Positions 1,180 through 13,367 of a DNA stretch of 13,467 bases are shown here, in pieces. The translations under genes and the position numbers were made by a program. This DNA comes from Streptomyces sp. NRRL S-31 (GTDB taxonomy: Bacteria > Actinomycetota > Actinomycetes > Streptomycetales > Streptomycetaceae), in the NCBI RefSeq assembly GCF_000718775.1, contig NZ_JOCB01000148.1, positions 1-13,467 of the forward strand, in the 5' to 3' direction. The notes below the pieces were generated by a model that worked only from the letters and a program-made list of their open reading frames with translations, was not told the origin of the DNA and did not search any database. Position 1 is the stretch's first letter. Each line of letters opens with the position of its first letter.

Positions 1180-1547
1180 CGGGCGGCCTCCGTGGAGTAG
1201 TTCGTGAGCAGATGGAACGGGAACGGAGCGGTCTCCATGTGCACGCCGAAGTCCCGGATCCAGTACCAGTGGAACGGGAAGGTGGGGACGCCCGACCCCA
1301 TGAGGGCGACGGCCCGGTGATGGCCGTCGGCCACGTACACGTCGGGGTGGCGGTCGCTGACTCCGAGGGTGATCGGCTCGCGCAGGCCCTCGCGGGGGAT
1401 GGACCGGCGGAGTTCCTCGACCAGGGCGCGGTCCTTGGGCCGGGTCTCGAAGCGCCGGCGGGCGTCGGCCCACCGGACGTACTCCGTCGGCCTGATGTGC
1501 TGGTCGCTGAGCAGCCGGGTGGGCATCTGGCCCCGGTACAGCCTCAT
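1176..1547 (-). CDS. ParB/sulfiredoxin-fold small protein
   Basis: A 123-residue protein. ATG 1547 overlaps the upstream stop as ATGA. Residues 14-85 fit the ParB N-terminal (ParB/Srx) fold: a conserved 'ALVEELRRSIPREGLREPITLGV' stretch, then VYVADGHHRAVAL at 70-82, where D74-G-H-H-R78 is the nucleotide-binding signature. There is no helix-turn-helix or dimerisation domain, so it is not a complete partition ParB. The C-terminus (residues 88-113) is rich in Phe, His and Trp. ParB-fold proteins bind CTP or ATP, and some act as nucleases or kinases. It is translationally coupled to the RapZ-domain gene, which suggests a shared job. Confidence 0.75.
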   Translation of the reverse strand: MRLYRGQMPTRLLSDQHIRPTEYVRWADARRRFETRPKDRALVEELRRSIPREGLREPITLGVSDRHPDVYVADGHHRAVALMGSGVPTFPFHWYWIRDFGVHMETAPFPFHLLTNYSTEAAR

Positions 1548-1903
1548 CGGGTCGCCTCCACGGTCCAGGTCCAGCCTTCACCGGCGGCGGCGGCACGGGC
1601 GGCAGCGTCGGCCAGGGCGCGGGCAACGGCGGCGGCGGAACCGCGGACGAACCGGTGCCGGGCGAGCTGGAGCAGGAGGCCGGCGACCTGGTCGAGCTTG
1701 GCGGCCGGGATGGTGCCGCCGGTGCCGGGGTCCCTGAGCAGGTCCACGAGGGGGCCGCGCTCGGCGGACGGCAGGCAGCCCTCGGCGTACCCGGCCAGGG
1801 CGGTCAGGACCTTGACGGGGTGGCGGTCCTCGCCGAAGAAGTCGCTGCCGTGGCTGACGACGACGTGGGACTGGGGGTCGATGATCTGCGGTCGACGGGT
1901 CAC
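1544..1903 (-). CDS. Hypothetical protein of the transfer operon
   Basis: A 119-residue protein read from GTG 1903, which overlaps the upstream stop as GTGA. Longer in-frame starts would run into the neighbouring membrane-protein gene in another frame. I recognise no domain. The N-terminal half contains the distinctive segment SHVVVSHGSDFFGEDRHP (residues 13-30), followed by a helical region and a strongly alanine-rich stretch at about residues 88-110. There is no signal peptide or membrane segment, so it is probably cytoplasmic. Its evidence is the unbroken chain of 4-bp overlaps on both sides and the high G/C at third codon positions. Confidence 0.7.
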   Translation of the reverse strand: MTRRPQIIDPQSHVVVSHGSDFFGEDRHPVKVLTALAGYAEGCLPSAERGPLVDLLRDPGTGGTIPAAKLDQVAGLLLQLARHRFVRGSAAAVARALADAAARAAAAGEGWTWTVEATR

Positions 1904-2349
1904 AGCGAGCCTCCCACGGCGATCAGGGCGGACAGGACGAGCAGTGCGGCACCCGCGTACATCAGGTCGATGGCCTGGCGCACGGCGGTGAACTTGGTGA
2001 CCGCGAGCCGGGACAGGCCGACGATGTCGGCGGCCAGGTCCCGGGTCTCGGCGGTGGCGGTGATCTGCTGGGGGGTGAGGGTGGCCCACAGCGGGAAGCC
2101 CTGGCGGCCGTTGAGGTTCGGGCGGACGGAGTGGAGCAGGAGTCCGGCCGTGACGGCCAGGACCGCGAGCCCGATCTCTCCGACGACGTACGCGGCCGGG
2201 GTCATCGGCAGGGCGCGGGCGAGGGTCCAGGCGCCGGCCAGGACCGCGCCGACGAACGCCAGCAGTAGTCCCGCCTTGACGTCGGTGCGGGCGATCTCCG
2301 CCCGGACCTCGGCGTGCTGAGCAGCTAAGACCTCATCGGTGATGCTCAT
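1900..2349 (-). CDS. PycTM / Pycsar-effector-like membrane protein
   Basis: A 149-residue protein starting at ATG 2349 (ATGA overlap with the spdB stop). An upstream in-frame start inside spdB is less likely. The order of elements matches the Pycsar effector TM family: an N-terminal amphipathic helix ending in EIARTDVKAGLLLAF (residues 18-32), TM1 about 26-45, TM2 about 53-74, the short motif RPNLNGRQGFP at 76-86, then a cytosolic helix with LSRLAVTKFTAVRQAIDLM (112-130) running into TM3 at about 128-146. In Pycsar defence such proteins damage the membrane when a cyclase makes cCMP or cUMP. No nucleotidyl cyclase gene is visible on this plasmid. The gene lies in the spread operon, where similar proteins have been called integral membrane plasmid transfer proteins. 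Fold assignment is likely; a defence role is only inference. Confidence 0.7.
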   Translation of the reverse strand: MSITDEVLAAQHAEVRAEIARTDVKAGLLLAFVGAVLAGAWTLARALPMTPAAYVVGEIGLAVLAVTAGLLLHSVRPNLNGRQGFPLWATLTPQQITATAETRDLAADIVGLSRLAVTKFTAVRQAIDLMYAGAALLVLSALIAVGGSL

Positions 2350-3440
2350 GCCGACACCCCTTCCAGCTCCTTGAAGCGGTTGGCGACCCACCCGGTAGAC
2401 CAGCCGGTGAGCGCGGCGACCTGACGCTGTGAGCGGCCCTCACGGACCGCCTTGGCGACCTCGGCGCGGGCGTCCTCCTCGCTCATCTTCTGGCCGGGCT
2501 TGGCGTCGTGAGCGGTCTCGTGAGCGGGGGTGCTCACAGTGGCGCTCACGGTCTGGCGGGGGGTGCTCACGGCGGCGCTCACGGACGCCAGGGCGGGCTT
2601 GCGAGTCTCGGTCGCCTTCCGGTCCCGTTCGGCCTGCTGTGCCCGCTCCTTGGCCTTGCGGACGGCCTCCTGCTGCTGCCGCTCACGCTCCTGCCGCTCC
2701 CGCTCTTCGTGGCGCTCGCGGTCGATGCGCTCCTGTTCCTCGCGGCGGAGGGCGGCGGCCCGCTCCTCTCGCTGCCGCTCCAACTCGGCTTCGTGCTCAC
2801 GCTCCTCGCGGGCGACGCGGGCGGCGTGCTCACGCTCGCGCTCACGTTCGGCCGCCTCCTGCTCACGGCGCTCACGGGCGGCGGCCTCCTGGCGCTCACG
2901 CTCCTGCCGGGCGGCTTCCTGCTCGCGCTCACGGTCGGCCCGCCGCTCTTCACGGAGCTGGCGCTCACGCTCGCGCTCACGGTCGGCCTCGGCCTGGTGC
3001 TCACGCTCGATCCGCTCGATCGCCGTGGTGATCGCGCGGCGCCACTTCAAGCCCGCCTCGGCCGTGACGATGAGCAGGATCGGCGCGACCGCGTGGACGC
3101 CGACGCCCACCAGGTCGCCCTTGAGCGCGGAGTCTCCGACGTTGAGCGCAAGCGTCATCAGTCCGGTGAGCCACCGCAGCAGCGCCGGCCAGAACCCAGC
3201 GTCGCCGTCGAGGCGGGCGACGATCGCGTCGACCCGCACCACGATGACCACGGCTGCGTCCACGACGATCGGCAGGATCGGCGCGGTCAGCCCCCAGCCC
3301 TCCGGCGTCACCCGCTGCACGAGCGGGGTGACGGTGAGGACCGAGAACAGGACCGCCCCGGCGACGATGACCCACGACAGGCGCAGGATGCGTTCCGCAG
3401 CGTCGACTTGGGCTTGGGTGTCGAGCTTCACGCCGATCAC
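2346..3440 (-). CDS. spdB: SpdB-type plasmid spread protein
   Basis: A 364-residue membrane protein. GTG 3440 overlaps the preceding stop as GTGA. GTG 3431, 8 bases after GGGGAG, is an alternative start. Four hydrophobic segments lie at about residues 21-40, 52-70, 84-101 and 112-128 (DUF2637-like membrane domain). A very long Glu/Arg-rich coiled coil follows (about 131-278), then a Ser/Thr/Pro linker (279-318), and a helix-turn-helix-like tail with SQRQVAALTGWSTGWVANRF (337-356). Known SpdB proteins of pSVH1, pSN22 and pIJ101-type plasmids are membrane-associated, bind DNA and promote intramycelial spreading, where TraB-delivered DNA crosses septa. The DNA of the coiled-coil and linker part is packed with a GTGAGC motif; see the separate repeat entry. 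Confidence 0.85.
   Translation of the reverse strand: MIGVKLDTQAQVDAAERILRLSWVIVAGAVLFSVLTVTPLVQRVTPEGWGLTAPILPIVVDAAVVIVVRVDAIVARLDGDAGFWPALLRWLTGLMTLALNVGDSALKGDLVGVGVHAVAPILLIVTAEAGLKWRRAITTAIERIEREHQAEADRERERERQLREERRADREREQEAARQERERQEAAARERREQEAAEREREREHAARVAREEREHEAELERQREERAAALRREEQERIDRERHEERERQERERQQQEAVRKAKERAQQAERDRKATETRKPALASVSAAVSTPRQTVSATVSTPAHETAHDAKPGQKMSEEDARAEVAKAVREGRSQRQVAALTGWSTGWVANRFKELEGVSA
2407..3004. repeat. GTGAGC/GCTCAC motif cluster inside spdB
   Basis: The hexamer GCTCAC occurs 15 times on the plus strand (starting at 2532, 2544, 2565, 2577, 2681, 2795, 2828, 2840, 2861, 2870, 2894, 2927, 2963, 2975, 2999). Its complement GTGAGC occurs four times (2407, 2429, 2508, 2520). 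That is 19 hits in about 600 bp, against roughly 14 that I counted in the other 12.8 kb. Many are exactly 12 bp apart. In spdB they are read as Arg-Glu, Val-Ser, Ala-His, Leu-Thr and, with a rare TCA codon, Ser, so the motif is kept in several frames and both orientations. Confidence 0.7.
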
Positions 3441-3916
3441 TCCCCGACCCTGGAGCGGGCGCCGATGCCGCGCGCGGTCGACGTGATCTCGGTCCGCTTG
3501 ATCACGGTGCCCTGGTAGACGTTCGTGGTCGACGCCTTGCGGGCCTTGGAGATGGCGCCGCCGAGGGCCGTGGCCAGGGCGGCGGCCCCGGCGAACGGGG
3601 CGGTGACGGCGAGGACCCCGGTCAGGGTCACGGAGGAAAGGGCCTGAAGGAAAAGCCAGGCCGCGCAGCCGAGTCCCACCGCGCCGGCGCCGACGCCGAT
3701 GGAGGCGACCGCGACTCCGGCGGCCCACTGAGGGACGATCCGGGTCTCGGGCTGGAGGACGGGCGGGGCGGAGCCGATGGCGGGGACCGGGGTGGTGTCG
3801 CGGAAGGTGGTCGCCGCGGGCGCCGGCGTCTCGGGCCGGTACGCCTCGCGGATCAGCCGCTTCGCTTCGGCGGACGCCTCGGTGTCGGTCAGGGGATACT
3901 GCGGGTCGGTGGTCAC
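3437..3916 (-). CDS. Small membrane protein of the spread operon (Spd-like)
   Basis: A 159-residue protein. GTG 3916 is preceded by GGAGG six bases upstream. Residues 1-60 are soluble and proline-rich. Two hydrophobic segments follow (about 66-92 and 96-120, Gly/Ala-rich), then a basic tail TTNVYQGTVIKRTEITSTARGIGARSR. Two-TM proteins at this position, between tra and spdB, are typical of Streptomyces plasmids and are usually called SpdA, SpdC or SpdD. They help spreading and probably form a septal complex with SpdB. Sequence similarity to a particular Spd is not something I can prove. It is the first gene after the clt-like repeat array and is coupled to spdB by a GTGA overlap. Confidence 0.7.
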   Translation of the reverse strand: MTTDPQYPLTDTEASAEAKRLIREAYRPETPAPAATTFRDTTPVPAIGSAPPVLQPETRIVPQWAAGVAVASIGVGAGAVGLGCAAWLFLQALSSVTLTGVLAVTAPFAGAAALATALGGAISKARKASTTNVYQGTVIKRTEITSTARGIGARSRVGE

Positions 3917-3977
3917 GGGATGCCTCCGTGGCTGTCGTCAGGCGGGCCGCCCCGATTCGAGCGGGGCGGTCCGTCGC

Positions 3978-4099
3978 TGTGCGGGGGGTGTGCGGTCGTG
4001 CTGTGCGGGGGTGTGCGAGCCGCTGTGCGGCCCCTTTCACACGCCGTGTGACATGGGAATTCGCGCTGTGCGGCTGTGCGGGGTGTGCGGGGTGTGCGG
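3978..4099. repeat. Candidate clt: nine TGTGCGG repeats after traB
   Basis: TGTGCGG starts at 3978, 3989, 4002, 4024, 4067, 4075, 4084 and 4093, with the variant TGTGCGA at 4012. With the preceding base each is an 8-mer, C or G followed by TGTGCGG. Successive starts are 8-13 bp apart except for a 43-bp gap, which contains an inverted repeat CACAC-GCC-GTGTG (4038-4050). The array fills the non-coding gap between the traB stop codon and the next gene. In pSVH1 and related plasmids the clt locus, bound by the winged helix of TraB, consists of short 8-bp TRS repeats near the 3' end of traB. The position, unit length and clustering fit; binding has not been shown here. Confidence 0.75.
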
Positions 4100-6130
4100 T
4101 CAGCCGCCGACACCGGCCAGGACCGGCAGGAGCCGGTACACGCCCGCCTCCCCGGTCGGGGCCAGGCGCCCTTCCTCCGCGAGCCGCTTCATCTCCCGGG
4201 AGACCCACGAGCGGTCGCGGCCGATCTGCTCCAGGTACGGCCCGAGATCCTTGACCGCGACCGTGCCGGGGCCGACGGAGGCGAGCATCTCCACCAGCTC
4301 AGCGAGCAGCTCCCGCGCCTCCTCCGTCGACGGCTTGCCCTCCGGGAGCGCGGCGTCGACGCCGGCGGCGGGCAGTTCGGCCGTGGCGTCCAGGTCAGCG
4401 TCCTCGGCGTCGACGAGCGCGGCGACCGCCTGGGCGGACTCCTGGGCGTCGGTCGGAGCCTGAGCCTGGGCGGGAACCGTGGCGGCGGCCGGGGCCGGGG
4501 CGCCTGCCCGGGCATGGCGCTCGGTGAAGAGCTGGCCCGCGACCTTGGCCGCGATGTCCTCGGTGACCGTGCCAGTGCTCTGGGGCCGGACGCCGGCGAA
4601 CTGGGCCACGATCCAGGCGGCGGCCTTCTCGTACTCGCCGGACGGGCCGGTCCAGAACGTCCTGGCCGGGTTCGCGTACAGGTCCTCGTCCACCCCGGCG
4701 GACACCATGTAGACGTAGCCCTTGCGCTTGTTGCCCCACGCGGCCGGGTTGGCGCCCGCCTCCAGGACCTCCTCCGGGAGCGCGAACGAAGCGTCGTCGC
4801 CCCGGACTCCGAAGCACATCGCGGCCGGGAGGGACGCGCGGGTGTCGGTGGAGAGCTGGTAGCCGGACGCCCGCTGCATGGAGATAACGAGGGAGACACC
4901 GGCGGACCGGGCCTCCTGCGCGATGCCGGTGAACACGTCGTCACCCAGCTCGCGCAGCAGCTTGGCGGCCTCCTCGAACCACGCGACCAGGTACGGCATC
5001 CCATCGCAGCCGCAGGCGCCGGCCGCGCGGCACGAGTGAGCCGGATCGGTCTGCTTCTCGGCGGCCGCGGGCTCCCACGCACGGTAGCTGTGATCCCGCA
5101 GCCAGGCCGCACGGGCGGGGATGACGGCCTGGACGGTGGCGACCATCGCGGAGGCCGACACGGTGTCCAGGGCAGCCCAGTCGAGCGCCGGGACGAGCGG
5201 GAGGAAGTCCTGTCCGCCCTTCGCCGCGTCGGACAACCACACCGAGACGTCCCGGCGGGTCAGCAACTCGAAGAACAGGTCGAGGGCGCCCTCCGTCTTG
5301 CCGCTGCCGGTCATCCCCATGACGAGCATGTGGATCGCGTCCAGGAGCGGCAGCACCAGGTCGCTGCCGTCGTCGTACACGCCGATCCGCAGCGGCACGG
5401 CGATGGACTGACCGGGGGCAAACGGCCCCGGGTACAGCGTCGGGGTCTTGAGCATGTCCTCGGGCACGATCACGAACTGGCCCTTCCTGGCGGAGTCGGG
5501 GTCGTGCTGGACGCGGATGGCCGTGGTCGGCACGTCGAGGGCGGAGGCGATCCGGGGGAGCGCCTTGGCAACGTCGTCGTTGGTCAGCTCCCCGGCGGGC
5601 AGCTCGTACGGCACGGTGACGCGGTTCGGCTCGACCTTGATCTGGCGGAGCTTGGTGCGGGCGAGCCCGACCTTCTCCAGCAGTCCCTTGTCCGAGTCGG
5701 ACCCGGACGTCTCCCCGCCGGCCGCACGCATGACGTGCCGGATGTTCCAGGACAGGGCGAGGGTTGCCCCGCCCATCAGGTACAGGTCAGGGAGCGGGCC
5801 GGTGAGCGGGCCGGACAGGGCGGCGGAGGTGAGCCAGGCCGACCCCGCCGCCACGGTGATGGCGGAGTGCAGACGGCGCTGGGGGCCGGTGGACTTGCCC
5901 GCCCACCAGGTCGCGGCCGTCAGGGCGGTGGAGGCGAGGGTGAGGCCGACGCCCGCCCACGGGGACCCGCCCCACTGCCAGTTCGCGCCGGCACCGGCCA
6001 GGCCGACCCCGCCCACGACGATCCACGGCGGCGTGTACGGCTTGGCCCGGTGCCACAGCCAGGCACCCATGCCGGTCGACCCGCCAGAGTTCAGGCGGTC
6101 CTCGTTCTGCTGCTGAAGATCCTTGCCCAT
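4100..6130 (-). CDS. traB: TraB conjugative DNA translocase (FtsK/SpoIIIE-like)
   Basis: A 676-residue ATPase. ATG 6130 follows a GGGGGAG Shine-Dalgarno seven bases upstream. The N-terminus carries about four weak membrane segments (residues 36-50, 58-75, 88-105, 113-130). The motor domain has Walker A GMTGSGKT at 272-279, a Walker B-like strand YLVAWFEEAAKLL at 380-392 with E386/E387, and the 'SLVISMQRAS' strand at 413-422 (FtsK: LILATQRPS). Three cysteines (367, 373, 375) sit in an insertion just before Walker B. An Ala/Pro/Glu-rich linker leads to a winged-helix domain at about 590-676 (WVSREMKRLAEEGRL), the part that reads clt in homologues. TraB of Streptomyces plasmids moves unprocessed double-stranded DNA at hyphal tips and is sufficient for transfer. 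The gene is probably repressed by the divergent GntR regulator. Confidence 0.95.
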   Translation of the reverse strand: MGKDLQQQNEDRLNSGGSTGMGAWLWHRAKPYTPPWIVVGGVGLAGAGANWQWGGSPWAGVGLTLASTALTAATWWAGKSTGPQRRLHSAITVAAGSAWLTSAALSGPLTGPLPDLYLMGGATLALSWNIRHVMRAAGGETSGSDSDKGLLEKVGLARTKLRQIKVEPNRVTVPYELPAGELTNDDVAKALPRIASALDVPTTAIRVQHDPDSARKGQFVIVPEDMLKTPTLYPGPFAPGQSIAVPLRIGVYDDGSDLVLPLLDAIHMLVMGMTGSGKTEGALDLFFELLTRRDVSVWLSDAAKGGQDFLPLVPALDWAALDTVSASAMVATVQAVIPARAAWLRDHSYRAWEPAAAEKQTDPAHSCRAAGACGCDGMPYLVAWFEEAAKLLRELGDDVFTGIAQEARSAGVSLVISMQRASGYQLSTDTRASLPAAMCFGVRGDDASFALPEEVLEAGANPAAWGNKRKGYVYMVSAGVDEDLYANPARTFWTGPSGEYEKAAAWIVAQFAGVRPQSTGTVTEDIAAKVAGQLFTERHARAGAPAPAAATVPAQAQAPTDAQESAQAVAALVDAEDADLDATAELPAAGVDAALPEGKPSTEEARELLAELVEMLASVGPGTVAVKDLGPYLEQIGRDRSWVSREMKRLAEEGRLAPTGEAGVYRLLPVLAGVGG

Positions 6131-6146
6131 CGTGGGTCTCCCCCTC

Positions 6147-6695
6147 TCAGAACCGGAACGGGTTGGTGGTGGGGGCCTGCTGGGGGCGCGGACGCATCAG
6201 GTCGGCGTACTCGCGCTGGAAGGCCGCGTAGGTGGCCACCGCGTTCTTCGCCGCAGCCGTGGCGCCGTCGGCGGACCGCTTGAGCTTCCAGGCCACCTTC
6301 TTGGCCCGCATGCGGGTCTGGATCGCGTTCTCGCCCGGCAGCGGCAGGGACTGCCCCAGACGGGCCTCCAGGATCTTCGCGGCCATAGCCAGCTCGATGG
6401 CCGCCTGGATCATCACGGCCCGCAGACCGTTGCAGTAGTTCCGGACGTCGTCCGTCGTGTTGAAGCTCGGCTCACCGAGGATGAAGTGCGAGGACCGCCC
6501 ACCCTGCGGCGCCGAGCCACCACCACCCACGTTCTGCGTCCTGTTGCTGTTGAACGTGATGTTCACCGGCGGGACAAACGACTGGCCCATCGCACCGACG
6601 AACCCGCCGGCCGCCGCACCAGCCGCACCAGCCGCGGACTTGAACTTCTCGCCCTTGCTCGCCCCTTCCGGGGACGGAGTGTTCCTCGTGGCCAC
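6147..6695 (-). CDS. Transfer-operon protein in the TraA position
   Basis: A 182-residue protein. GTG 6695 has AGAGAGG seven bases upstream. It starts the transfer operon, and its stop lies 16 bases before the traB start, so the two are co-transcribed. The N-terminus is Gly/Ala-rich (AAGAAGAAAGGFVGAMG, about 21-37), followed by an Asn/Gly-rich stretch (48-66). The C-terminal two-thirds is helical with TTDDVRNYCNGLRAVMIQAAIELAMAAKILEARL and a basic segment MRAKKVAWKLKRSADGA. No known catalytic motif is visible. In pSN22 a small traA lies directly before traB and is needed for efficient transfer. Placement suggests the same role here; I cannot confirm homology from memory. Confidence 0.7.
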   Translation of the reverse strand: MATRNTPSPEGASKGEKFKSAAGAAGAAAGGFVGAMGQSFVPPVNITFNSNRTQNVGGGGSAPQGGRSSHFILGEPSFNTTDDVRNYCNGLRAVMIQAAIELAMAAKILEARLGQSLPLPGENAIQTRMRAKKVAWKLKRSADGATAAAKNAVATYAAFQREYADLMRPRPQQAPTTNPFRF

Positions 6696-6714
6696 GACAG
6701 CACCTCTCTCGCTG

Positions 6715-6828
6715 AAGGTATGACTCTGCCTTCCGGCTGGTACTTAACGTACCTTGCCGATGCCATGAAGGTACATGAAGCACGGATTCAGGGCAAGCAT
6801 GTACCTTGGGCGAACATTGATGTACCTT
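6715..6828. promoter_or_regulatory. Divergent tra/regulator operator region (GTACCTT boxes)
   Basis: Five boxes of one motif lie between the two divergent starts: AAGGTA at 6715, CGTACCTT at 6748-6755 (with GGTAC at 6739 forming GGTAC-TTAAC-GTACC), AAGGTACAT at 6768-6776, ATGTACCTT at 6799-6807 and ATGTACCTT at 6820-6828. The last two are 21 bp apart, two helical turns. The region is AT-richer than its surroundings. GntR-type Kor/TraR proteins repress tra and themselves from such repeats, so this is the probable operator of the adjacent regulator. Confidence 0.75.
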
Positions 6829-6865
6829 CGGAAGTGAATCGCGCCCCGACAAACGTGGAGGAGCT

Positions 6866-7606
6866 ATGCCATACAAGGCACAGGAAGGGAAGGGGTACGC
6901 CGACGTGGCAGCCCACTTCCGCACACTGATCAAGAGCGGAGAACTCTCCCCGGGCGACTCGCTGCCGTCGGTCCCCGAGATCCGCCAGCAGTTCGGCGTG
7001 GCAGCGAAGACCGTGAGCCGAGCCCTCGGCGTGCTGAAGAGCGAGGGGTTGGTCACCTCCCGCGGCGCCCTGGGCACGACCGTGGCAAGCTCCCCGATCG
7101 TCATCACGGGCGCGGACCGGCTGAAGCGGATGGAGACCAACGGACTCCGCTACGCCCCTGGTGAGACCTCGTCTGGTCACCGCGTGATGCGCCGCTCGGT
7201 CTACGACTCTGAGGTGTGCACTGCACTCGACCTTGAGCCCGGCGACGAAGCTGTCATCCGTATCCGCGTCTTTCGACAGGACGACAAGCCGACGTCGGTC
7301 GGCATCTCGGTGTATCCGCCTCACACCGTCTCGGCCGTCCCGGAGCTGGCGGAGGACATCCGCATGGTGGCCCAGTTCGACAAGCTCTACACCGAGCGCA
7401 CCGGCCACGAAGTGGTAAAGGGGCAGCGCACTGCCCAGTCACGGCAGGCGACCCCCGACGAGCTGGCTGCTCTCGAAATCGACGCCCCGTCGCACTCCGC
7501 CGTGGCTGTCCTCGTCACCTCCGTGACCTTCCACGACGAAGACCAAGCCCTGGGCTACTGGGAAGACATCTACGCCCCCGGAGCGCGGGTTCCCATTGGT
7601 GAATAG
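6866..7606 (+). CDS. GntR-family regulator (KorA/TraR/KorSA-like)
   Basis: A 246-residue protein. ATG 6866 is preceded by GGAGGAGCT, an excellent ribosome-binding site. Residues 9-70 form the GntR winged helix: YADVAAHFRTLIKSGELSPGDSLPSVPEIRQQFGVAAKTVSRALGVLKSEGLV. The remainder (about 90-240) is a UTRA-type ligand-binding domain of the HutC subfamily, with RYAPGETSSGH...YDSEVCTALDLEPGDEAVIRIRVF. Streptomyces conjugative plasmids encode such a protein divergent from tra; it represses tra and its own promoter, since unregulated tra is lethal (kil/kor). The repeated GTACCTT boxes in the shared promoter region are the likely targets. Any ligand is unknown. Confidence 0.92.
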   Translation: MPYKAQEGKGYADVAAHFRTLIKSGELSPGDSLPSVPEIRQQFGVAAKTVSRALGVLKSEGLVTSRGALGTTVASSPIVITGADRLKRMETNGLRYAPGETSSGHRVMRRSVYDSEVCTALDLEPGDEAVIRIRVFRQDDKPTSVGISVYPPHTVSAVPELAEDIRMVAQFDKLYTERTGHEVVKGQRTAQSRQATPDELAALEIDAPSHSAVAVLVTSVTFHDEDQALGYWEDIYAPGARVPIGE

Positions 7607-11384: not shown

Positions 11385-11413
11385 GCGAGTTAGTGCGAAC
11401 TGGGGTCAGTTAC
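11385..11413. repeat. Palindromic boundary repeat, copy 3
   Basis: Reads GCGAGTTAGTGCG, AACTGGGGTCAGTT (11398-11411), AC. The first 18 bases are identical to copy 2, and the palindrome centre is changed from ATA to GGG. The rep stop codon TCA (11406-11408) lies in its right arm. Its near edge is 58 bases from the ATG of the 170-residue gene. Confidence 0.7.
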
Positions 11414-13367
11414 GGGTGCAGTCGCCAACGTGCTGGCCGTAGGGCTGGAGCGCGGGGGCGAGGGCTCGGCCGCACCGACGACAGGTCTCGGAGGCGGCAT
11501 CGGCCGGAGGCGTGAGGCGTGGCGCGGGAACGGCCGTGGGCTTGCGCCGCTTGCGCAGGCTGACCTTCGGGGTGACGGGCCGGTCGGGATTGCGGAGCCG
11601 GTCGAACGCCGCGGTGGTCTCGTCGGCGTGCGCGACCGCGACGAGCTTCCGCCGGCGGACGAACTCGGCACGCGCGGCGGCCAGCTCGTCGTGCTCCTGG
11701 TCCTCGATGTCGAGCTGTGCGTCACGGTCAACGGCGGCCTGCTTCATCGCGTCGGCGCGAGCCGTGTACTCGGGCGCGTCCGGGTGGGCGGCGAAGTGCT
11801 CGGCGCGGGCCTTGATGACGGCTCCCTCAGCGAGGGCGAAGCCGCGGCGCCAGACCTCGGCCCGGGCCGCCAGGTCCATCCGCGCGGCCCGTCGCAGGAC
11901 TTCGGCGGCGGTGGGCAGCGTGCCGTCGGCGGGCAGCTTCTCGGGCTCGGTGACGTCGGCGCCCCAGATCAGCCCCCAGGACTCGATCAGGGCGCGGACA
12001 GCACGGGTACCGCCCTTCTCGGCGGCCTTGAGCAGGGCGAGGGCGCGGCCCTTCTGCCGGGCGATGTGCCGGTACCAGGTCGCGGCAGGGATGCACGCGA
12101 TCGGCTTGCCGTCGGCGGCTTCGTCGGCGGCCACCTCGTTGTCGTTGCGCTCGTCCAGCTCAAAGCCCATCTCCCGCAGGAGCTTGCGCAGGCCGTTGGA
12201 CCAGTACAGCGAGCGGACGCCGGTCGCGGTGACCACGAACTCCCTCCACAGCTCCACCGAGCGCGCGTCACCAGCGATGGCGTCGCGGGCGATCTGGAAC
12301 GGGGTCCGATGCCCGCCCTGGCCCTGCTTCACATCCTGCCGGGTCAGCTCTGCGGCGACTCCCCAGCGGGTCTTCCCGTCCTGGTTCTTCATCAGGTAGC
12401 GGGCCATCTGGCCGGACTCTCCCCGGTCCGGAGCGTCGATCTTCACGCCGACGGGCTTGCCGTCCTTCTCGGAGACCTCCACCGGCATCCGGGCGCCGAC
12501 CTTGACCAGGGCCTCCGACCACACCTCGAACACGAGGTGCTGGAGTTCCTCAACGCGGCCGGCCGCGAGGGGCCGGGCCAGGAACAGCAGGACGTGGTAG
12601 TGGCAGTGCCAGCCGTTCTCGCCGTGCGTGACCTCCCAGGCCCGGACGAAGCCGCGGATGCCGAAGTCCTTCTTCGCCTGCCGCCACTGACGGCCCGCGT
12701 TCATGCCGAACCCGGCCTTCCATGCCGCCCGCTGCTTCTCCTCCAGGTCGGCCAGGAGGTCGCGGTCGTAGTGGCGCATGGTGAGCGTCATCATCACCAG
12801 GCCGCAACTCTGGCACTCCCAGAACTGGCCGACCTGGTCCAGCTCGTCCTGCCGGACGCGGCGGATCGACGTCGCGCAGCACGGGCAGACGTGCACCGAG
12901 CCGCAGGTGACGACCCCGGCGTACCCGGCGCGTCCGTTGCGCAGGGTCGGGGTCACGCCGCCCGCGAGGACGGAGATCCCGCAGCGCTCCAGGCGCTCCA
13001 GGCCGGAGATGGCCCGGAGGGCCTCGCGCATCTCGAACCGGATGTCGCGGGCCGTCGTGTCGGCGTCGGACTCCATGACGGTGCCGCGCGTCGAACCGCT
13101 GAACGTGGCCGGGTTGTCAGTGGACACGTCAAGATGCGGGCCGCTGACCTGCATGTCCGTAGTTTTCGCGGTAGTACCAAGGCCGCGTCCCTTTTTGGTG
13201 CCGGAGGTGCCGCCCGACCGGTCGGGGGTGGGCAGAGCCTCACCGCGCGCAATAGCACGCTTTGCCCGCTTTTTGCATGCTTCAGAGCAGTAGACGCGCG
13301 GGCGCTTGCCGGGCGTGTGGGTGATCGGGGTGCCGCAGAAGCAGCGGGGGCCACGGGTGGTTGTCAT
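11406..13367 (-). CDS. rep: Rolling-circle replication initiator (RepSA/pIJ101-type, HUH)
   Basis: A 653-residue replication initiator. ATG 13367 lacks a clear Shine-Dalgarno but keeps an N-terminal zinc module CFCGTPITHTPGKRPRVYC, then SEAC (Cys 9, 11, 27, 31). A second cysteine cluster, CPCC...CQSC, spans 161-188. HUH endonuclease motifs follow: MMTLTMRH at 192-199 (motif 1), HCHYHVLLF at 254-262 (motif 2, metal-binding His) and ARYLMK at 322-327 with Y324 as candidate nicking tyrosine and K327 (motif 3). The C-terminal region (about 430-653) is Ala/Arg-rich and ends with CRRCGRAL...C. Such proteins nick the double-strand origin and start rolling-circle replication with host enzymes. The single catalytic tyrosine agrees with plasmid, not phage, initiators. 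Confidence 0.92.
   Translation of the reverse strand: MTTTRGPRCFCGTPITHTPGKRPRVYCSEACKKRAKRAIARGEALPTPDRSGGTSGTKKGRGLGTTAKTTDMQVSGPHLDVSTDNPATFSGSTRGTVMESDADTTARDIRFEMREALRAISGLERLERCGISVLAGGVTPTLRNGRAGYAGVVTCGSVHVCPCCATSIRRVRQDELDQVGQFWECQSCGLVMMTLTMRHYDRDLLADLEEKQRAAWKAGFGMNAGRQWRQAKKDFGIRGFVRAWEVTHGENGWHCHYHVLLFLARPLAAGRVEELQHLVFEVWSEALVKVGARMPVEVSEKDGKPVGVKIDAPDRGESGQMARYLMKNQDGKTRWGVAAELTRQDVKQGQGGHRTPFQIARDAIAGDARSVELWREFVVTATGVRSLYWSNGLRKLLREMGFELDERNDNEVAADEAADGKPIACIPAATWYRHIARQKGRALALLKAAEKGGTRAVRALIESWGLIWGADVTEPEKLPADGTLPTAAEVLRRAARMDLAARAEVWRRGFALAEGAVIKARAEHFAAHPDAPEYTARADAMKQAAVDRDAQLDIEDQEHDELAAARAEFVRRRKLVAVAHADETTAAFDRLRNPDRPVTPKVSLRKRRKPTAVPAPRLTPPADAASETCRRCGRALAPALQPYGQHVGDCTRN

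Follow-up and report, generated by a model that had tools for sequence, protein, structure and literature searches.

The nine short direct repeats that follow traB at positions 3978 to 4099 of the window are most probably (probability roughly 0.93, from sequence and by analogy with known systems) a docking and transfer site (clt), at which the winged helix of TraB would load and pump the plasmid DNA. This reading is preferred because the plasmids pJV1 and pSN22 share the repeat unit and its place, the layout of the array is kept, and the class of the unit follows residue 645 of TraB. The window is the whole stretch of 13,467 nucleotides that was analysed. Since 99 bases are identical at its two ends, it was treated as a closed circle of 13,368 bp, a plasmid taken to be of the pJV1/pSN22 type. 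For window positions 1500-7500 the best plasmid match was pSN22 (NC_001425.2), with 99% covered at 79.2%, and pJV1 (NC_001759.1) covered 57% at 75.3% in one piece that ends at the end of the record.

3437..3916, minus strand: first gene downstream of the putative clt, at the position of the spd genes, without family match
3943..3973, minus strand: G+C-rich hairpin between the putative clt and the first spd-type gene (fold and alignment)
3978..4099, minus strand: putative clt, nine direct repeats, in traB sense CCGCACA (eight exact, one TCGCACA); array also in pJV1 (L007) and pSN22 (L008)
3978..4030, minus strand: distal block, five units with steps of 12, 10, 13 and 11 bp, with TCGCACA at 4012-4018 (alignment)
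4031..4066, minus strand: conserved core between the blocks, with the palindrome TCACACGGCGTGTGA at 4037-4051 (alignment and palindrome scan)
4067..4099, minus strand: traB-proximal block, four units with steps of 9, 9 and 8 bp (alignment)
4100..6130, minus strand: traB, FtsK-like DNA translocase of 676 aa (NCBIfam NF041214 plasmid_TraB, equivalog match, 834.6 bits against a cut-off of 800)
4103..4366, minus strand: C-terminal part of TraB (residues 589-676), predicted winged helix (model, mean pLDDT 81.7)
6147..6695, minus strand: traA (NCBIfam NF041213)
6866..7606, plus strand: traR-like GntR/UTRA regulator, divergent from traA (profile match)
11406..13367, minus strand: Rep protein of the rolling-circle type (Pfam Rep_1, 33.5 bits; cut-off 33.2)

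Layout of the array and its likeness to pJV1

The sequence-only reading had counted nine TGTGCGG repeats. Nine units could indeed be identified on one strand within 122 bp, but only eight of them are exact (at 3978, 3989, 4002, 4024, 4067, 4075, 4084 and 4093) and the ninth, at 4012-4018, is the one-base variant TGTGCGA. All nine units share one orientation, and every unit (9/9) is followed by CC or GC and matches CCGCACA[C/G][C/G]. As had also been stated, the array stands directly after the traB stop: the last unit ends at 4099 and adjoins the stop codon at 4100-4102, traB being encoded on the minus strand. The proposed central inverted repeat was recovered as the palindrome TCACACG-C-CGTGTGA (forward strand, 4037-4051). 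Read along the traB strand, the stop is followed by four CCGCACA units, a 43-bp step over the core and five more units, and the genes in the spd-gene place follow the array.

The features of a pJV1-type clt could be found in this locus, namely short direct repeats in or beside traB, a CCGCACA[C/G][C/G] unit in about nine copies, inverted repeats (the palindrome at 4037-4051 and the hairpin at 3943-3973 just outside the array, which may correspond to the pairs of pJV1), and a cognate TraB that belongs to the plasmid_TraB family and has a predicted C-terminal winged helix. Judged by its sequence, the array itself is a further pJV1-type clt, and its assignment as a clt-type array bound by TraB is well supported. 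Work on the pJV1 clt is attributed to Franco et al. 2003, as cited in PMC3583192. In the account given in PMC3583192, the pJV1 clt consists of nine direct repeats CCGCACA[C/G][C/G], and the title of a paper cited there calls the direct repeats essential. The unit had been proposed as a possibly new recognition sequence, which was ruled out: TGTGCGG is the reverse complement of this published repeat (PMC3583192) and is also present in the records of pJV1 and pSN22, therefore it is not new.

After traB, CCGCACA occurs nine times in pJV1, which shares with the window the unit CCGCACA[C/G][C/G], its copy number, its position and the block-core-block layout. The two differ in the spacing of the first block (8-10-8 in pJV1, 9-9-8 in the window), in the one TCGCACA unit of the window, and in the palindrome, which is perfect in the window but has a broken left arm in pJV1. 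The spacer behind traB in pSN22 resembles the window in place, core and unit, but contains fewer full units (eight CGCACA, six of them full CCGCACA).

The hairpin at 3943-3973 was predicted to fold as RNA at -30 kcal/mol (z -2.0; 10/200 shuffles fold as well), and paired changes were seen by eye in the relatives L007 and L010; it is perhaps a terminator or a processing site. In the spd region, a gene at 1900-2391 gave a match to Pfam PycTM, the membrane domain of Pycsar effectors (E 1.9e-12), and a PycTM-type annotation is also found on genes of pJV1, L016 and L017. Another 7-mer, GCTCACG, reaches up to six copies within 122 bp inside a spd-type gene (window 2755-3015).

Chance, slippage and conservation in relatives

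In the whole window 10 exact copies of TGTGCGG were counted on both strands, compared with a mean of 3.7 (sd 1.9) in shuffled sequences, of which 1/200 reached this number. At least eight copies of some 7-mer within 122 bp were obtained in 2/100 dinucleotide shuffles of the plasmid, low-complexity cases possibly included. These shuffles speak only moderately against chance alone, and the array is regarded as real because its conservation in relatives settles what the shuffles leave moderate.

Within the host genome, three units spaced 1-6 bp apart occur only in the window array (3/3 matches), and pairs of units 2 bp apart occur also elsewhere (4/6 matches outside the window). The CCGCACA triple with 1-6 bp spacing was found in 49/199 Streptomyces genomes, host included, and many of the listed matches look like simple tandem repeats, as would be expected if the array were a neutral tandem repeat that arose by slippage; read backwards, the triple pattern was found in 22/199 genomes (hand count from the table). 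However, the units in the window are unevenly spaced, their spacing and the core are conserved across plasmids, and when 30 triple loci were fetched (about 3 kb each), TraB was encoded by the window locus only. Slippage is hardly credible and the least probable of the explanations considered.

The putative clt was followed through 84 TraB loci. The window belongs to the first set of 57; a second set added 27, without L119, which is the TraB of L058. Genome searches with TraB gave matches in 31/199 genomes of the genus and 26/200 of the family, and a TraB match was present in 55 plasmid records, of which 16 were fetched. Units were counted as NNACA[C/G] on both strands in about 300 bp at the traB stop, a count that presupposes ACA. 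A unit with at least four copies was identified in 74/84 loci; with L023, whose displaced array was assigned to TG by hand, 75/84 could be classified (TG 52, GC 12, TA/TC 8, AG 2, GA 1). The unit varies mainly at two positions, giving CC[GC]ACACC, CC[TG]ACACC and T[A/C]ACACC. The nine unclassified loci are L049, L050, L108, L110, L121 (CTGACGC-type), L057 (CCGGACGC), L056 (mixed), L118 (no clear array) and L053 (masked bases). A free 8-mer search ranked a different G+C-rich word first in some rows (e.g. L034, L035, L038, L044, L101). The record of L023 is an exact dimer and carries seven TGACA-type units about 385-490 bp past the traB stop, displaced units by which L023 was ruled out as a TraB without array. 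In L094 (NZ_CP109563.1, 29,492 bp) a sequence of 14,746 bp is repeated exactly, head to tail; its array lies about 385-490 bp from traB, and a ParB-like gene is annotated between the two, partly over the array.

The CCGCACA class comprises 12 sequences, of which nine were aligned (all but L011, L012 and L115). The 43-bp step across the core is kept in 7/9 of the aligned sequences; L010 and L014, the exceptions, show in the alignment a one-base change in a unit next to the core. The palindrome keeps its right arm, GCGTGTGAA, in 8/9, and the left arm varies: the palindrome is perfect in 4/9 (window, L008, L015, L016), and the left arm is broken in L017 as in pJV1 (L007). Arrays of the TGACA class contain exactly one inverted unit in 38/51 cases (a hand count in which single chance matches are possible), and it is suspected that the right palindrome arm of the CCGCACA class stands in place of this inverted unit.

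Relatives with the same TraB C-terminus but without the repeat were sought and none was found among the TraBs with a [D/E]RSW helix: 11/11, window included, have a CCGCACA array near traB. In L017 the array starts 168 nt past the traB stop. The units of L011 and L012 are mostly inverted with respect to traB (2 forward; 6 and 7 reverse), therefore the orientation relative to traB is not fixed. The elements L011 and L012 lie on 5.2-Mb and 173-kb contigs and have a pJV1-like TraB.

The predicted winged helix of TraB and the proposed loading

A winged helix had been expected at the C-terminus of TraB, and structure prediction places one at residues about 602-667 (mean pLDDT 81.7). Residues 640-652 form its predicted recognition helix, which contains S641 and R645 and is immediately preceded by D639. 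When this model was searched with Foldseek, winged-helix folds were among the matches listed; no PDB chain matched at E <= 0.001, and FtsK gamma was not among the matches listed in this structure search. The winged-helix sequence gave weak matches in the PDB, mostly to calmodulin and centrin, which were judged as chance.

Like the window, pSVH1 has 8-bp repeats tied to the winged helix of TraB, with a different unit, given as GACCCGGA in the sequence-only reading. According to Vogelmann et al. 2011, as cited in PMC3583192, TraB of pSVH1 reads these repeats through helix alpha 3 of the winged helix. The clt of pWTY27 is described in PMC3583192 as TGACACC repeats that are protected against DNase I by its Tra protein. 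pWTY27 (L026) resembles the window in having repeats beside a TraB-type gene, but two unit positions differ (CC[TG]ACACC versus CC[GC]ACACC), as does the recognition helix (SRPW versus DRSW). FtsK gamma, the winged helix of a hexameric DNA pump, reads the 8-bp KOPS, and R1300 and E1303 of its recognition helix matter in the account of PMC2680272. The pair of TraB and clt would be similar in combining the winged helix of a hexameric pump with 8-bp motifs, but KOPS are spread over the chromosome, whereas the window clt is one clustered site on a plasmid.

By analogy with pSVH1, pJV1 and FtsK, the window TraB most likely loads on the array through its winged helix and pumps double-stranded plasmid DNA. 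The C-terminal winged helix would insert its recognition helix into the nine CCGCACA units, and the units would gather TraB subunits into a hexameric pump on the array. This pump would move double-stranded plasmid DNA into the recipient hypha, and the common orientation of the units could set the loading direction, as KOPS do for FtsK.

With its palindrome and its position between traB and the spd-type genes, the array could also be imagined as the operator of a transcription regulator (TraR or an spd regulator) that controls the downstream spd genes. This is very improbable, since the region between traR and traA has GTACCT boxes instead, a search of the window that allowed up to 3 mismatches gave no further copy of the palindrome, and changes of the unit track the TraB recognition helix; moreover, nine direct repeats over 122 bp would be unusual for a GntR operator. 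Four GTACCT/AGGTAC boxes were found between traR and traA (window 6749-6827) and are probably the TraR operators; with these different boxes, a TraR operator in the array was judged unlikely, and the missing second copy led to rejection of the palindrome as a repeated operator. Replication iterons, or a part of a single-strand origin, are still less probable. Short direct repeats of this kind look similar and the plasmid is small, but its Rep is of the rolling-circle Rep_1 type (just above cut-off), the rep gene lies about 4 kb from the array on the shorter way round the circle, and both plasmids and long contigs carry arrays next to traB.

Recognition-helix residues and the class of the unit

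The reading of the array as a clt draws on residue 645 in the predicted recognition helix, which was the best predictor of the unit class among 628 TraB columns (72 rows: GC, TG, TA/TC); residues 641 and 639 ranked 27th and 36th in the same comparison. In a 44-row clade of the first set, Ser641 and a non-TG unit coincide in 44/44 rows (both absent in 29, both present in 15; L023 assigned by hand), with five changes each for Ser641 and for the unit on a quick tree from which the winged helix was left out. Among the 52 first-set rows that have a class, two (L051, L060) break the coincidence.

A first rule was framed on the 44-row clade before the second set was analysed, the clade membership of second-set rows not being fixed beforehand. 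It states that Ser641 gives a unit other than TG and P or G641 gives TG, and that D or E639 gives GC and S639 gives TC/TA. The rule held in 12/12 second-set rows with xSRPW, KRPW or LSRSW-VSL helices (L095-L103, L105, L106 and L122, without L104). Eight second-set rows with Q or A641 lie outside it; L104, L109, L111, L113, L114, L116 and L117 have TG units and L118 has no clear array. The rule failed in six second-set Ser641 rows with VSG[QE]V or STQV helices: three of these (L107, L112, L120) were counted as TG, and the other three (L108, L110, L121) carry CTGACGC-type arrays. It is also broken by the first-set rows L051 and L060, which share this helix type. For L115, TC/TA was predicted and GC was observed (8, with 5 GA).

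Ser641 combined with K, R or L645 separates TG from the rest in 72/72 rows, a combination that was fitted after seeing the rows and with the three AG/GA rows left out. Independent pairs on well-supported branches changed in the same direction in 5/5 cases; the sign test gives p 0.0625, therefore significance at 0.05 is not reached. The correspondence between helix and unit is a correlation that spans about six evolutionary changes, and one helix type holds exceptions. L013, whose TraB is 71% identical to that of the window and sister to the 11 [D/E]RSW rows, has an SRPW helix and a TGACACC array. L115, at 40% identity, has SASW with R645 and the unit CCGCACAG; here the window's unit has apparently originated a second time. 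The host genome contains another TraB element (L058, G000:C74:40000-47500; 53% identity, SRSW helix), which carries an array with the unit CGTCACA directly after its traB.

The balance tips slightly towards a code in which two to three residues of the recognition helix (639, 641, 645) would choose the two variable bases of CC-NN-ACACC. Elements within one host would then each have a transfer site of their own, and the TraB C-terminus would reveal the clt of most plasmids and integrated elements that are still uncharacterised. The variable bases may correspond to positions 3-4 of the unit (CCGCACACC), with 641 and 645 as candidate contacts. No helix-to-repeat code appeared in titles and abstracts of the open PMC literature among the matches listed, and such a code may already be in print. 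If it is true, it would permit prediction of the clt in many TraB elements, also in integrated ones like pSAM2, for which PMC9513070 states that no clt motif was described. The code would also allow testing whether elements that share a cell transfer each other, and the window and L058, with different units in one genome, form a ready test pair.
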